64,000 nt of DNA from Sorangium aterium. Lineage in GTDB: Bacteria > Myxococcota_A > Polyangia > Polyangiales > Polyangiaceae. The stretch is taken from NCBI RefSeq assembly GCF_028368935.1, contig NZ_JAQNDK010000001.1, positions 868,001-932,000 on the forward strand, given 5' to 3'. Each line of letters begins with the position of its first letter. The first letter of the stretch is position 1. Both the position numbers and the translations under genes were made by a program. A model generated the notes under the pieces. The model ran no database searches. It saw nothing but the letters and a program-made list of their open reading frames with translations, and was not told where the DNA came from. Below, one piece after another: positions 7,844 to 16,869 of this stretch.

Positions 7844-8218
7844 TCAGCGCTCGCTCGCGTGCGCGATGGTCTCGATCATGCGCGGGATGGCCACGGAGAT
7901 GAGGATCCCCAGGTTCGCCCGCTTGTTGTCCACCAGCATGCCCTGGAGCAGATTCCCGTGGTTGAGCACCACCACGGTGTGGTTGCCCGCCATGTCGAGC
8001 AGGTAATACCGCCCTAACGGAGGGAAGTTCGAGTCGCGCAGCGAGCTGTCCAGCTCCTCGGTGATGCGGGTGAAGAGGGCCACCGCCACCGGTTGCTGGT
8101 TGAAGCCGGCGAGCGACAGGCCCGCCGAACGTTCCCAGATGTCGGTGGCCAGCAGCCCGTCGCGGAGGATGTTGCGGAGATCATGGACTGCGGCCTCGAG
8201 GACTTTGGTATCGATCAT
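7844..8218 (-). CDS. Small Roadblock/LC7-like protein, last gene of the ParA operon
   Basis: 124 aa from ATG 8218. The pattern is an N-terminal helix (MIDTKVLEAAVHDLRNIL), a beta meander, a central amphipathic helix (QPVAVALFTRITEELDSSL), then RYYLLDMAGNHTVVVLNHGNLLQGMLVD and a final helix. This alternation and the length fit Roadblock/LC7 proteins such as MglB, small dimeric regulators of GTPase and polarity systems. It follows the previous gene by 52 bases on the same strand and closes the TPR-PATAN-ParA-Roadblock operon. The fold is an inference from the pattern; no catalytic residues are expected. Confidence 0.55.
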   Translation of the reverse strand: MIDTKVLEAAVHDLRNILRDGLLATDIWERSAGLSLAGFNQQPVAVALFTRITEELDSSLRDSNFPPLGRYYLLDMAGNHTVVVLNHGNLLQGMLVDNKRANLGILISVAIPRMIETIAHASER

Positions 8219-8270
8219 CGTGCTTCCGTCGCTCCTGGGCGCGCGCGCCCGCATTGAAAACCCGGATGTA

Positions 8271-8843
8271 CTACAGCCCGCGCAAGGTCGTCGCGAGCGC
8301 CTCCTTCAGCTGCTCGAACGACCGCGTGGAGAGAGCCTCGTCGCCCACGGTGCCGAGGCAGAAGCCACCGCGCGCCGTGCGCGCCTCGACCCAGGACATC
8401 ATCTGCGCGCCCAGCCAGAGCGCGCCCGCCGTGGCGTCGACGCCGGGGATGCTGCGGACGCCGACCAGCGCCGAGAGCAGCGGCCCCACGAGGGACACGT
8501 GCGCCTCGGAGATGCCGTGCGCCGCCAGCGTGAGGCCGTTGTCGTCGGCCACGAAGGCGCCCACGCACGCGTGGTGATCGAGCGTCCAGGCGACGAGCGC
8601 GTCGAGCCGATCGGCCGGGTTGTCGGAGGTCTGAACGAGGCGCGGCACCTCCTTCACCTCCTTGGGCACGTCCTTGGGCGCGGCCTTCGCCGGCACGGGC
8701 GCCGCCTTCGCCGGCGCGCCGGCGCGCGGTGCCCCCATGGCGCTCACGAGCGCCGCGGGCTCCCGCGACCGCGTCGCGCTCACCCGCGCGAGGAGCGAGC
8801 TCACCCGCTGCGCGTCAGTCCACGAGACGGATCGGACCGTCAT
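8271..8843 (-). CDS. Roadblock/LC7-like protein with Ala/Pro/Lys-rich N-terminal extension
   Basis: 190 aa. The first ~75 residues are Ala/Pro/Lys-rich and probably disordered (APAKAAPVPAKAAPKDVPK). They lead into a compact domain (about 78-190) with RLDALVAWTLDHHACVGAFV, ADDNGLTLAAHGISEAHVSL, GALWLGAQMMSW and a C-terminal helix. The meander around VADDNGL resembles Roadblock/LC7 proteins, where a helix precedes a strand carrying a D-x-x-G turn. The ATG at 8843 lies inside the 3' end of the ParA gene (29-base overlap), so translational coupling and joint function are likely. The Lys-rich linker could bind DNA or tether the ParA partner. Fold assignment is tentative. Confidence 0.55.
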   Translation of the reverse strand: MTVRSVSWTDAQRVSSLLARVSATRSREPAALVSAMGAPRAGAPAKAAPVPAKAAPKDVPKEVKEVPRLVQTSDNPADRLDALVAWTLDHHACVGAFVADDNGLTLAAHGISEAHVSLVGPLLSALVGVRSIPGVDATAGALWLGAQMMSWVEARTARGGFCLGTVGDEALSTRSFEQLKEALATTLRGL

Positions 8844-9618
8844 CCTCGCCTCCTGCGTTGGAGCCCAGGCGCTCCTCGATCTCGGCCACCAGCTTGTCGA
8901 ACACCGCGGAGACCGCGGGCGGGCGGCGGCTCAGCAGGCCGAGCGGCACGCCCGCGCGGCTCGCCTGGAGGAACGTGCTGTCGCGCGGGACCGCGGTGTC
9001 GAAGACCTGATCGCGGTAGAGGGACCACAGCTCCTCCAGCGAGGCCAGCATCACCGGCTCGCGGAACGAGCTCATGGTGCCGACCACGCCGAGGAGGGAG
9101 CAGGCGGAGCCGATGTCGCGGAGCCGCGCCAGGAGCTCGAGCAACCGGGGCATGGCCCGCAGCGCGAGCGGCTCGCACTGCGCGACGGCGATGACGCTGT
9201 CCACCTCCTCCAGCGTGAGGCGCGACATCCCGCCGAGCCCGGCCGGCGTATCGAAGAGGACGAGGTCGAAGTCGCGCTGGCTCTGCTCCAGGATGCGCCC
9301 CACGATGTTCGCCTCGCGCGCGTTGATGGCGAAGCGATCCTCATCGAGCGCGTCGACGGGGCCCATGGGCAAAAGACAGAGCTCCGGGAGCCGGGTCTTC
9401 ACCAGACCCTCGAGCGGGGGGCCGCCGCGCGCGAGGCTCGCGGCCAGGCCGGGGCGGTCGCTGACGCCGTCGAGCGACATGCCGATGGCGCCCTGCAGAT
9501 CCGTGTCGACGAGCAGGGTCCGCGCGCCTCGGCGCGCGAAGGCGAAGGCGCAGTTGAGCGCCACGGTGGTCTTTCCGACTCCGCCCTTGAGGCTGGCGAA
9601 TGCGATGGATCGGGTCAT
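8815..9618 (-). CDS. ParA/MinD-family ATPase
   Basis: 267 aa. The deviant Walker A KGGVGKTT (about residues 11-18), LLVDTDLQG (about 36-44) and LVLFDTPAGLGG (Walker B) are diagnostic of the ParA/MinD/Soj group, which forms ATP sandwich dimers on DNA or membrane and positions cellular cargo. There is no N-terminal helix-turn-helix, so it is a small orphan-type ParA rather than a plasmid partition protein, and no C-terminal amphipathic MinD membrane helix is obvious. Its ATG overlaps the stop of the PATAN gene by four bases and its 3' end overlaps the next start. Its partners are therefore probably the PATAN and Roadblock-like products. Confidence 0.9.
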   Translation of the reverse strand: MTRSIAFASLKGGVGKTTVALNCAFAFARRGARTLLVDTDLQGAIGMSLDGVSDRPGLAASLARGGPPLEGLVKTRLPELCLLPMGPVDALDEDRFAINAREANIVGRILEQSQRDFDLVLFDTPAGLGGMSRLTLEEVDSVIAVAQCEPLALRAMPRLLELLARLRDIGSACSLLGVVGTMSSFREPVMLASLEELWSLYRDQVFDTAVPRDSTFLQASRAGVPLGLLSRRPPAVSAVFDKLVAEIEERLGSNAGGEDDGPIRLVD

Positions 9619-10490
9619 CTTGGGTATCCGAGCTTGCGTAGCTGTTCCAGGTTAGCGCGCACGAGGCTGGATGCGGGATCGAGCGTCGAGAGGTCGATGA
9701 GGACGCAGGCCGCCTCGCTGTAGCTGCGTTCCATCAAGAGGCGCCGCGCGTCGGCGTTGAGCTGCTTGATGCGGGCCGCGCGCTGCTCCGGCGAGATGAG
9801 CGCGATCTCGATCCGCCTCGACGAGATCGGCGGCGGCGCCTCCACGCTACCTTCGTCGATCCGGCGCAACGAGTCGAGCACCAGCTCCGCCAGATCCTTG
9901 AAGATGGTGCGCTCCTTCGTCGAGCCGACGGCGGGGGTGACGCGCACCCGCATCTCGGGGCGGATGAGCCGCGCGAACGCCTCCTCGCCCACGCCGAGGC
10001 CGTCGAACGCCGTCCACACCTGGCCGCGCCGCACCTCGATCAGACCCACGTCGGCGCTGGCGTTGCTGACCACGAGGACGTGCGACTCGCCGGACATGCA
10101 GATCATCTGCAAGAAGTCGACGGGCACGAAGTTCATCCCGATCGGCGCCGACTGGGCGCCCGCGGCGTGCGCCATGAGGATGAGCGTCTCCTCGGCGATG
10201 GGCCACGTCACCCGCGTGGTGCCCGCCGCTCCCGGGACCTCCACGCCATCGTTGACGGCGAGCACCAGCCGCGCCGTGCGGCGGAGGAGCTGCGCGACGG
10301 CGTCCTCCGGCCCACCCGGGAGCGACGGCGCGTAGATGATCAGCTCCGCGCTCTGCACGCCGTCGAGGGCTTGATCGAGCTCCTCCCAGGTCGCGGCGCC
10401 GAGGGCGCTCACCGGCGCCTGCCCGGCGATGACGCGGATGCACCGCATGCGCTCGCGCAGATCGGGAACAGCGACCACGACGATGGCCAT
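9615..10490 (-). CDS. Pseudo-receiver + PATAN/DUF4388 domain protein
   Basis: 291 aa. Residues 1-105 alternate beta strands and helices like a response-regulator receiver (VVVAVPDLRERMRCI, SAELIIYAPS, ARLVLAVNDG), but without a convincing phospho-acceptor Asp/Lys set. Residues about 118-190 match a PATAN (DUF4388) domain: MNFVPVDFLQMICMSGESHVLVV, then VGLIEVRRGQVWTAFDGLGVGEEAFARLI. PATAN domains are signalling adaptors frequent in deltaproteobacteria. The C-terminus (about 240-291) forms a TPR-like helical hairpin. The start ATG 10490 overlaps the upstream TGA by one base (TGATG), and the stop overlaps the ParA start, so the genes are translationally coupled. Confidence 0.75.
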   Translation of the reverse strand: MAIVVVAVPDLRERMRCIRVIAGQAPVSALGAATWEELDQALDGVQSAELIIYAPSLPGGPEDAVAQLLRRTARLVLAVNDGVEVPGAAGTTRVTWPIAEETLILMAHAAGAQSAPIGMNFVPVDFLQMICMSGESHVLVVSNASADVGLIEVRRGQVWTAFDGLGVGEEAFARLIRPEMRVRVTPAVGSTKERTIFKDLAELVLDSLRRIDEGSVEAPPPISSRRIEIALISPEQRAARIKQLNADARRLLMERSYSEAACVLIDLSTLDPASSLVRANLEQLRKLGYPR

Positions 10491-11254
10491 CAGCCTCCGG
10501 TGTCGCGCCGCACCCGGCGCAGCATGACCGACGACGCCGTATCGCCCGGGCGCATGCGCGCGCACGCCTCGAACGCCTCGACCGCAGCGTCGTAGCGGCG
10601 CTGCACGAACGCGGCGGTACCGCGGGCGAACGCCTCGCGGTAGAGCCGATCCTCCTCGGTCTCGTACACCCGTGGCGTGAACGGCGCGCTCGCGGGGGGA
10701 GTCGGCGCGCTCGCGGGAGGAGTTCGCACGCTCGCGGGGGGAGCCTCCGGCGGTCGCCGCTCCAGGCCGCGCTCCGGCACCGTCGGCGGCCCCGGATCGG
10801 CGCCGGCCTCGGACGGCAGCGTGTCCAGCTGCGGCCGGAAGGAGACCGACGGCCGGTCGCTGAACGGCGACGCCACCTCCCTCCCCGTGTAGAGGCCGAC
10901 CAGCACCTGCAGCGTGCGGAGCCGCCCGAGCGGGCACATTTGAATGATGTCGTCGAACGTCGAGGAGCCGTCGATGTACCGCGCCACCAAGAGCGCGTCG
11001 GGCGAGCGGCCCGCCGACACCGGGATGGGCCCCGCCACCTGATCGAGGCCGCCGAGCCGCTTGGCGTAGGCGCCGGCGAGGAACTCTTTGATCCGCTCGA
11101 TGCTCGCCTGCAGCTCGCGATCGCCGGGCGACTCCGCGCGCGCCCGGTACAGCACCGCCAGCGCCTCCTCGTAGCGCTTCTCACGGACCAGCCGCACAAT
11201 CTCCGCCCGCATGGGCGCGCTCTTCGGGACCGCGCGGCTCTCGGGCTCCACCAT
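10490..11254 (-). CDS. TPR-containing adaptor, first gene of the ParA operon
   Basis: 254 aa from ATG 11254. An N-terminal TPR-like hairpin (EIVRLVREKRYEEALAVLYR) is followed by a segment (about 75-115: LLVARYIDGSSTFDDIIQMC, then RLRTLQVLVGLYTGREV) that reads like the winged-helix tail often attached to PATAN/DUF4388 proteins. A Pro-rich linker with repeated PPAS units (about 150-180) leads to a second TPR unit (AAFVQRRYDAAVEAFEACARMRPGD). Such proteins act as scaffolds. It opens the operon that continues without a gap into the PATAN gene. Longer upstream in-frame starts exist but would translate low-complexity sequence without domain character. Confidence 0.65.
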   Translation of the reverse strand: MVEPESRAVPKSAPMRAEIVRLVREKRYEEALAVLYRARAESPGDRELQASIERIKEFLAGAYAKRLGGLDQVAGPIPVSAGRSPDALLVARYIDGSSTFDDIIQMCPLGRLRTLQVLVGLYTGREVASPFSDRPSVSFRPQLDTLPSEAGADPGPPTVPERGLERRPPEAPPASVRTPPASAPTPPASAPFTPRVYETEEDRLYREAFARGTAAFVQRRYDAAVEAFEACARMRPGDTASSVMLRRVRRDTGG

Positions 11255-11938: not shown

Positions 11939-12712
11939 ATGCGGCAGGTCTTGCGGCACATTTTCGAGAAGAAGCAGGCATACGCTCGTCTACCCCTGTT
12001 CGAGCGCATGCGAGACGAACGGCTCGATCCGAGCGAGCGGCTCGCCTTCTATCCATGCATGGCGTACTTCATCCTGAGCTTCGGTGATCTGAACAAATTC
12101 GTACTACGGGAGGAGCACGCGGCGGACGAATACCAAGAGATGGTCAACGCCCACACGCGCGAGGACGACCATCACTGGCCCTGGTACCTGGAGGATCTGT
12201 CCAAGCTCGGCTACGACGTCGAGGGCCGGACCACGGACCTGCTGCACTTCCTCTGGGGTGAGGAGACGATGCAGAATCGGGTCCTCACCGCGCGGCTCAC
12301 CGCGCTCATCAAGGGCACGACGGGCCTCGAGCGGCTCGTCATCATCGAGGCGATCGAGGAGACCGGCAACGTGCTCTTCGGGGCGATGCTCCCGCTGGCG
12401 GAGACCCTGGAGAAGCGCCTCGGCACGCAGCTGCGCTACTGCGGCTCGTTCCACTTCGAGCGCGAGTCGGGCCACGCGGTGAACGCCGACCACGCCGAGC
12501 TCGCGCGCATCCCGCTCGACGCGGAGACGCGCGCGCGGTACATCGCGCTCGCGGACGAGGTGTTCACGATATTCGAGCCGTGGACCCACGAGCTCTTGCG
12601 CTATGCCCTCGCGCACCCCATGAGCGTCCCCGTGGCCGACCCCGAAACGGACGGCGTGAGCCAGGTGATGACCCGGTCGTCGGTGCTCACCGCGAGAAGC
12701 ACCGCCGCGTGA
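11939..12712 (+). CDS. Haem-oxygenase-like (TENA/HDO-type) protein, function unknown
   Basis: 257 aa. The start ATG 11939 is fixed by the strong ribosome site AAAAGGAGAT eight bases upstream. The protein is almost all helical and has an E...H...ED..H spacing: EEHAADEYQEMVNAHTREDD followed by HHWPWYLEDLSKLGYD, then IIEAIEETGNVLFGAM and FHFERESGH. Carboxylate/His clusters placed this way resemble haem-oxygenase-like di-iron enzymes and 'iron-containing redox enzyme' families. The metal site is an inference from spacing. It stands alone between two unrelated genes, with nothing nearby to reveal its substrate. Confidence 0.5.
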   Translation: MRQVLRHIFEKKQAYARLPLFERMRDERLDPSERLAFYPCMAYFILSFGDLNKFVLREEHAADEYQEMVNAHTREDDHHWPWYLEDLSKLGYDVEGRTTDLLHFLWGEETMQNRVLTARLTALIKGTTGLERLVIIEAIEETGNVLFGAMLPLAETLEKRLGTQLRYCGSFHFERESGHAVNADHAELARIPLDAETRARYIALADEVFTIFEPWTHELLRYALAHPMSVPVADPETDGVSQVMTRSSVLTARSTAA

Positions 12713-16218: not shown

Positions 16219-16869
16219 ATGGCCTGGTTCTACGTCGTCCACGGCTCCATCCGCTTTCCGACAGCAGATGGCCCACCGGCCTGGCACGACGCTCCCATCC
16301 CCACCTGGAAAGGAAAGGGCAAGCTCGAGGTCGGCAAAGCGCTCGAGTGGACCGCACGCGAGGCCCTTGTCGACCCGAGCGCTCCGGCGGGGGAGCGCGC
16401 GGCGTACTTCTTCGATGCCGTCGCTGACGGCTCCGTCGTGACGTTCCGCGGCTTCATCCATCGCGACGACGCGGACACGGTCATGGCGGTGCTCGGCGTC
16501 GCCGCGGAGCTCGAGGCCAAAGGCGAGGTGCTCTTGCATCATGTGTTCGATCGAGACTCGGGGGTGCGGGTCACGGTTGCGAAGGGCCGGATGACCGTGC
16601 GCGAGGGAGACGTGAAGATGCCGAGTCACGTCATCGAGGAGGTCGAGCAAGAGAGCATGTCGCGCGCGCGGCGGCTCGAGGCTGGCGAAAAGCCCCCGCC
16701 TGCGAAGGCGAAGGCTGCGACAAAGAAGACGCCGAAGGCGAACGCTGCGACGAAGGCAACGAAGGCTGCGACGAAAGCGACAAAGGCGGTGAAGGCTGCG
16801 ACGAAGGCGGTGAAGGCTGCGACGAAGGCGACGAAGGCTGCGACGAAGACGAAGGACAATCGTTCCTGA
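16219..16869 (+). CDS. Hypothetical protein with histone-H1-like Lys/Ala/Thr repeat tail
   Basis: 216 aa. Residues 1-150 form an ordered domain (MAWFYVVHGSIRFPTADG through VTVAKGRMTVREGDVKMP) of unrecognised family. Residues about 152-216 are a basic tail of repeated KATKAA and KAVKAA units, resembling histone H1 C-termini and the AlgP-type bacterial proteins. Such tails bind nucleic acid non-specifically or act as flexible positive tethers. The repeats are mirrored in DNA by near-tandem units of gctgcgacgaag (16700-16855), so copy number is probably variable. No signal peptide. Function unknown. Confidence 0.6.
   Translation: MAWFYVVHGSIRFPTADGPPAWHDAPIPTWKGKGKLEVGKALEWTAREALVDPSAPAGERAAYFFDAVADGSVVTFRGFIHRDDADTVMAVLGVAAELEAKGEVLLHHVFDRDSGVRVTVAKGRMTVREGDVKMPSHVIEEVEQESMSRARRLEAGEKPPPAKAKAATKKTPKANAATKATKAATKATKAVKAATKAVKAATKATKAATKTKDNRS

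Follow-up and report, generated by a model that had tools for sequence, protein, structure and literature searches.

The stretch of the Sorangium aterium genome (13.5 Mb) analysed here, referred to as the window, is 64,000 nucleotides long and carries on its minus strand a compact operon of five genes, for a tetratricopeptide repeat (TPR) protein, a pseudo-receiver/PATAN protein, a ParA-type ATPase and two Roadblock-like proteins, RB1 and G5. With a probability of roughly 0.55, sequence comparisons point to this operon as a ParA/MinD-type positioning switch whose ATPase is partnered by a Roadblock protein instead of ParB, MinE or PomX. RB1 would most likely be the ATPase-activating, cargo-linking partner of ParA, and the PATAN, TPR and second Roadblock proteins would form a cargo or signal hub.

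The ATPase and its Roadblock neighbours

By its sequence, the operon ATPase (P0003) is a member of the ParA/MinD family of deviant Walker A ATPases, with all catalytic residues kept. It matches the Pfam AAA_31/ParA profile at 7.9e-23, as well as the BcsQ profile, and it carries the signature Lys11 and Lys16 of the deviant Walker A motif (KGGxGKT), the Walker A' Asp40 and the Walker B Asp123. Residues K11, G12, G13, G15, K16, T17, T18, D40 and D123 are invariant across 23 homologues. The closest solved relative is Soj of T. thermophilus (E 3.6e-20). The protein ends in an acidic/polar tail (...GEDDGPIRLVD), the alignment shows no obvious amphipathic membrane-targeting helix, and the score falls far under the NCBIfam MinD cut-off. 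None of the five operon proteins has a ParB match in Pfam, and the gene downstream of ParA encodes a Roadblock protein, so that the position of a cognate ParB, as in ParABS systems, is otherwise occupied. Genes for ParB, MglA or a chemoreceptor are all missing from the five-gene operon, as had been stated in the first-pass annotation, a reading of the DNA made from its sequence alone. No Ras-like MglA is thus encoded with the operon Roadblock genes as in an MglA/MglB module; the canonical mglB (160 aa) and mglA (196 aa) of this genome lie together on contig C5 (G000:C5:1451392-1452326, L215), separate from the operon.

On the evidence of their structural models, RB1 (P0004) and G5 (P0005) both have the Roadblock/LC7 fold. 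Pfam returned no match for G5 and only a weak LAMTOR5 match for RB1 (0.0031, below cut-off), and neither protein reaches the gathering score of Robl_LC7 (PF03259), a family that is recognized above cut-off in relatives from other module types (3.5e-14 and 1.7e-17). The fold was assigned by comparing AlphaFold2 models with solved structures by Foldseek and VIA. The G5 model (predicted local distance difference test score, pLDDT, 83.6) has the element order a-b-b-a-b-b-b-a. Among solved structures, Foldseek ranks Roadblock/LC7 proteins highest, M. xanthus MglB among them, with template modelling (TM) scores up to 0.84, and VIA aligned 116 residues with 9jue (Z 17.1, root-mean-square deviation, rmsd, 1.7) and 115 with 6hjm, M. 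xanthus MglB (Z 16.0, rmsd 1.6). In the RB1 model, the N-terminal half is disordered, with a helix at residues 11-23, and the Roadblock domain covers approximately residues 72-190 with a pLDDT above 88. MglB is its top Foldseek match, and VIA gave Z 13.3 (rmsd 2.4, 111 aligned) against the Streptomyces Roadblock protein 3kye and Z 12.8 (rmsd 2.7, 115 aligned) against the MglB structure 3t1r. The closest solved relatives of the two folds are Roadblock3, the Streptomyces Roadblock and MglB. Since GAF domains reach a VIA Z of 12.1 against RB1, its assignment also rests on the Foldseek ranking, on the Robl_LC7 match of the protein downstream of ParA in locus L089 (0.0012, below cut-off), and on a weak profile match of RB1 to the genome's own MglB (23 bits).

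The domain calls of the first-pass annotation are upheld by these results: TPR, DUF4388/PATAN and ParA are recognized by Pfam, and the two Roadblocks, which lie beyond the reach of Pfam, by their AlphaFold2 folds, as the models of the 124- and 190-aa proteins both show the Roadblock topology and both match MglB. None of the five proteins scores above an NCBIfam cut-off. Thus, the system is hidden by annotation, because Pfam and NCBIfam miss these Roadblocks at their cut-offs.

Known ParA/MinD partners act via a short peptide at the N-terminus, in which positive residues are essential, and are dimerised by the remainder of the protein (PMC13170346, PMC12462528, PMC10241942). RB1 has the layout of such partners, with a short conserved N-terminal peptide containing one or more basic residues, a disordered linker, a C-terminal domain, and a gene adjacent to that of the ATPase. 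Its residues 1-23 form a disordered tail with a W-x-D motif and a helix, and the linker extends to about residue 71, with the Roadblock domain at 72-190. W-x-[DENR] is present in 30 of 61 RB1 N-termini, compared with a mean of 4.7 in shuffles, most of the remaining tails having S-x-D, and a Lys or Arg occurs within the first 25 residues in 60/61. Among Sorangium RB1 proteins, identity is 92.8% in the helix past the overlap with ParA, 67.2% in the linker and 94.3% in the Roadblock domain. In most relatives, the ParA/RB1 overlap keeps the same frame and varies little in length (26, 29 or 32 bases). Conservation of the tail purely from this overlap was ruled out as a full explanation: the helix lies outside the overlap, and the motif is found in 10/10 RB1 genes with little or no ParA overlap, mostly from Verrucomicrobiota, so it is not merely a shadow of the ParA C-terminus. 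Because RB1 has the peptide layout of known ParA/MinD partners, a ParA-activating, cargo-linking role would be the best explanation for it.

Conservation, module types and gene layout

The five-gene string TPR-PATAN-ParA-RB1-G5 recurs in the genomes of five further Sorangium species and in another genus of the same family (G441, L206), and conservation of the gene neighbourhood thus extends beyond close strains. In a genome of another family (G082), TPR-ParA-RB1 occurs with G5 divergent alongside. Among 57 Myxococcota ParA loci, which were selected on ParA similarity alone, RB1 lies immediately downstream of ParA in 53, mostly with an overlap of ~26-35 bases. Chance adjacency of the operon genes is ruled out by the order kept in relatives and by these 53/57 loci. 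At the cut-offs used, this ParA recurs in 26/116 genomes of the order and 39/333 of the phylum; among the matches listed in the ParA scan of named genomes, many are generic ParAs. G5 is rare, being present in 3/284 Myxococcota genomes in one sample, which rules it out as a broadly conserved core gene and marks it as a lineage-specific accessory.

The ParA-RB1 core is older than the five-gene order. In Verrucomicrobiota, Rubritalea marina DSM 17716 among them, it occurs as a bare pair, and the genes scanned around it are metabolic or transport genes, which removed type IV pilus or other motility neighbours as a hint to the cargo. The first-pass annotation had regarded the system as a myxobacterial module, a restriction that does not hold, as the core is also found in Verrucomicrobiota and, in the form of fusions, in Desulfobacterota-like metagenome-assembled genomes (MAGs).

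The core is combined with different subunits. Type II modules have the order TPR-(PATAN)-ParA-RB1-RB2-V4R-like protein-~100-aa protein. The V4R-like member in L058 matches Pfam V4R above cut-off (1.6e-7), and RB2 (~192 aa) is called Roadblock-like on the ground that its profile and RB-type profiles converged. The same Sorangium genome harbors a second ParA-Roadblock module, an intact V4R-type paralogue (L061, G000:C7:190000-202000) with a small TPR gene, ParA, RB1, RB2 and V4R. In type III, a Robl_LC7 protein and a relative of the ODP-family oxygen sensor (ODP Pfam 4.3e-69) precede REC/PATAN/TPR, ParA and RB1, and L065 of this type has a PAS-type kinase-like gene upstream. Operons joining an ODP-family diiron metallo-beta-lactamase and a Pfam-recognised Roadblock to REC/PATAN/TPR, ParA and RB1 were observed at L064, L065, L069, L072, L076, L195, L196, L208 and L211-L213. 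The ODP-type operon is a candidate oxygen-responsive ParA system. Sensory subunits are thus exchangeable among modules, including V4R-like proteins, members of the ODP oxygen-sensor family and histidine kinases. Gene calls in low-GC loci are approximate.

In a FastTree phylogeny, RB1-linked, RB1-fused and PATAN-fused ParAs form one clade (n=83, support 0.92), separate from the further ParAs of the Sorangium genome placed in the tree. A Gemmatimonadota ParA group falls outside this clade, as its sister group; at the Gemmatimonadota loci (L109-L126), a small TPR gene was observed upstream of ParA, and RB1 was not found downstream. The ParAs of the Sorangium-type operon (type I) form a clade (support 1.00) nested among V4R-type ParAs. 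Given this nesting, the type I operon would probably have arisen from a V4R-type module by loss of RB2 and V4R and gain of G5.

As judged from their sequences, fusion proteins link PATAN, ParA and Roadblock independently of the Sorangium operon. ParA and Roadblock form single chains in L127 and L128, as detected by hidden Markov model (HMM) profile, and in L135 and L138, where the profile match is weaker and the sequence pattern the same. All four come from Deltaproteobacteria/Desulfobacterota-like MAGs; such fusions could include assembly errors, a risk lowered by the four independent records. Fusions of PATAN to ParA were recognized by Pfam in L107 and by HMM profile in L075. L138 encodes, next to its ParA-Roadblock fusion and to a histidine kinase, a REC-PATAN-Robl_LC7 protein with all three domains above the Pfam cut-off, and an NtrC-type regulator is also present. 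A G5-type domain constitutes the C-terminus of REC-PATAN fusions in L066, L067 and L068, the first two of which adjoin a type II module.

The TPR protein of the operon (P0001) matches TPR_14 (5.7e-6) and TPR_19 (6.6e-6) in Pfam, both above cut-off, and comprises an N-terminal TPR, a conserved central block, a Pro-rich linker and a C-terminal TPR; orthologues are found upstream of ParA in many Myxococcota loci. The PATAN protein (P0002) matches DUF4388 (PF14332) at 2.9e-6, with 27.8 bits for a cut-off of 25. In the alignment, its receiver has Tyr at the phospho-acceptor column, where Asp is kept in L064 and L065 (type III), L051, P0006 and L138. Being degenerate, the P0002 receiver would dock rather than accept phosphate in Sorangium.

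The five genes span positions 7844-11254, with neighbours sharing 1, 4 and 29 bases in turn and the last two genes 52 bases apart, exactly as had been described from the first reading of the sequence.

Table 1. Genes of the operon and the ParA/RB1 overlap, in window positions.
Feature	Position	Strand	Remarks
TPR protein	10490-11254	minus	254 aa
Pseudo-receiver/PATAN (DUF4388)/C-terminal TPR-like protein	9615-10490	minus	291 aa; start overlaps TPR stop by 1 base
ParA-type deviant Walker A ATPase	8815-9618	minus	267 aa; start overlaps PATAN stop by 4 bases
RB1 (first Roadblock, proposed ParA partner/activator)	8271-8843	minus	190 aa; start overlaps ParA stop by 29 bases
ParA/RB1 coding overlap	8815-8843	minus	29 bases; codes ParA ...DDGPIRLVD and RB1 MTVRSVSWTD
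G5 (second, stand-alone Roadblock/MglB-like)	7844-8218	minus	124 aa; starts 52 bases past RB1 stop

Upstream of the operon, a divergent gene for a 257-aa protein (11939-12712) is kept beside it in genus-mates (e.g. L062, L063). Elsewhere in the window, positions 16219-16869 encode a 216-aa protein with a long C-terminal repeat tail rich in Lys, Ala and Thr (KAATKATKA).

Proposed mechanism and rival explanations

In the mechanism that we propose, the ATP-bound ParA dimer would bind a cell-wide matrix, probably the nucleoid since no membrane helix is evident in ParA. RB1 would dimerise via its Roadblock domain and offer two N-terminal peptides that stimulate ATP hydrolysis, like ParB and PomX. 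The RB1 Roadblock domain and G5 might dock the pseudo-receiver/PATAN/TPR scaffold, itself the cargo or a link to it. In relatives, receiver phosphorylation and ODP or V4R-like sensors may tune the ParA cycle, the P0002 receiver of Sorangium having presumably been turned into a fixed docking domain. As an outcome, ParA would set the position or assembly state of a complex along the cell, with motility, sensory or envelope machinery as candidate cargo.

Several observations weigh against this positioning mechanism. Two C-terminal basic residues of Soj were inspected in the ParA alignment: the Arg after TM is retained and that of PRNVR is replaced, and with one of the two arginines kept, DNA or nucleoid binding is plausible and uncertain. 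The RB1 tail varies with module type, with W-x-D in types I and II and in Verrucomicrobiota and S-x-D in type III, and the Verrucomicrobiota tails have little net charge. In addition, no cargo gene is consistently linked to the ParA-RB1 modules. The rival explanations weighed (ALTERNATIVES) are a non-spatial ATPase signalling switch, an arm of the Mgl system and a vestige. It is credible, if unlikely, that ParA serves as an ATP-dependent molecular switch in the manner of FleN and BcsQ relatives, through which the Roadblock/PATAN sensory complex acts on an enzyme or transcription regulator, its position being incidental. The PAS-type kinase, ODP, V4R-like protein and phosphorylatable receivers found beside the core in relatives, together with the NtrC-type regulator of L138, the BcsQ profile match and the partial conservation of the DNA-binding arginines, would all fit such a switch. 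However, RB1 is laid out like the positioning partners (tail, linker and presumed dimer domain), the modules have no fixed output gene, and in Verrucomicrobiota the ParA-RB1 pair alone is retained, with housekeeping genes around it.

That the operon belongs to the Mgl polarity system as an accessory arm, its Roadblocks being GTPase-activating proteins (GAPs) or scaffolds for the genome's MglA and ParA delivering them to the poles, appears improbable. The RB1 and G5 models do match MglB, the genome has a canonical mglBA at another site, and a bipartite GAP complex that contains Roadblock is reported to act on MglA in M. xanthus (PMC9481161). On the other hand, the module loci that were read showed no gene for a GTPase, Roadblock is fused to ParA or PATAN, and RB1 matches the MglB of this genome at only 23 bits. 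The earlier view, in which Roadblock proteins regulate polarity GTPases, needs revision: overlapping genes, fusions and the activator-like tail point to action on or with ParA more than on such a GTPase, and mglBA is separate. That the type I operon is a decayed V4R-type module which lost its sensor, a vestige with little function in Sorangium, is very improbable. The nesting of type I ParAs within the V4R type, the degenerate receiver and the intact paralogue on C7 would agree with decay, but all five genes are intact, their order is also kept in another genus, and identity within the genus is 92-95% for G5 and 94% for the RB1 domain versus 67% for the RB1 linker. Anti-phage defence was likewise considered and set aside, PADLOC yielding only a P-loop match on ParA. 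Thus, the proposal of a positioning or polarity module made in the first-pass annotation may be retained in conditional form, with an altered emphasis: as the relatives carry sensory subunits, polarity is no more prominent than signalling.

Relation to known systems

Roadblock domains are familiar as companions of GTPases such as MglA and Rag. With odds that we would put somewhat short of even, the Roadblocks described here may represent the cognate partners, both ATPase activators and cargo adaptors, of a distinct ParA clade that spans several phyla, forming a Roadblock-ATPase switch parallel to the Roadblock-GTPase switch (MglB/Rag), in which exchangeable sensors (ODP-family, V4R-like, phosphorelay) set positioning by the environment. 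If true, the pairing would mean that ParA has a new kind of partner and that Roadblock also has a role apart from GTPases, and the oxygen-sensor-family and V4R-like subunits of sister operons make the steering of ParA positioning by signals directly testable. The occurrence of the ParA-Roadblock pair across several phyla suggests a widespread, apparently undescribed way to place or switch a signalling complex. In agreement with the earlier description of the system as undescribed, no matching system was found in the literature searched, where neither ParA nor DUF4388 was described in combination with Roadblock; many subscription papers fell outside the scope of these searches, so novelty is unproven. 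The operon may be regarded as ParA/MinD positioning with a new partner fold, not yet demonstrated as a new category.

The actinobacterial conservons (Cvn) comprise a kinase-like protein, an MglB-type Roadblock, a DUF protein and a small GTPase (PMC13343842). They are similar in being compact operons in which Roadblock proteins are coupled with both signalling proteins and a nucleotide switch, whereas their switch is a GTPase instead of a ParA ATPase and the remaining subunits differ. The MglA/MglB/RomR network shares the MglB-like Roadblock folds and occurs in the same organisms, and its FrzS and SgmX use a pseudo-receiver and TPRs (PMC11580455); in contrast, the switch encoded here is a ParA ATPase and not a Ras-like GTPase. 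In ParABS and the ParA cargo systems McdAB, ParC and PpfA-TlpT, the partner gene is also directly downstream of the ATPase gene, and the partner N-terminus is disordered and charged (PMC10241942). However, the partner domain is a Roadblock here, and the operon is devoid of a ParB or chemoreceptor gene. The orphan ParA2 of Bdellovibrio (Bd2331) affects gliding reversals, and its neighbour Bd2329 is non-ParB (PMC7186360). Like the Sorangium operon, PomXYZ of M. xanthus is an orphan positioning system in myxobacteria that combines a ParA/MinD ATPase (PomZ) with non-ParB partners, its activators PomX and PomY, and the partner acts via a short N-terminal peptide (PMC13170346, PMC7993993), which is predicted on RB1 in the present case. 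Neither PomX nor PomY has been described as a Roadblock protein, and that system has no described partners of the PATAN, pseudo-receiver or sensor kind, whereas in Sorangium the partner is a predicted Roadblock protein whose gene overlaps that of ParA.

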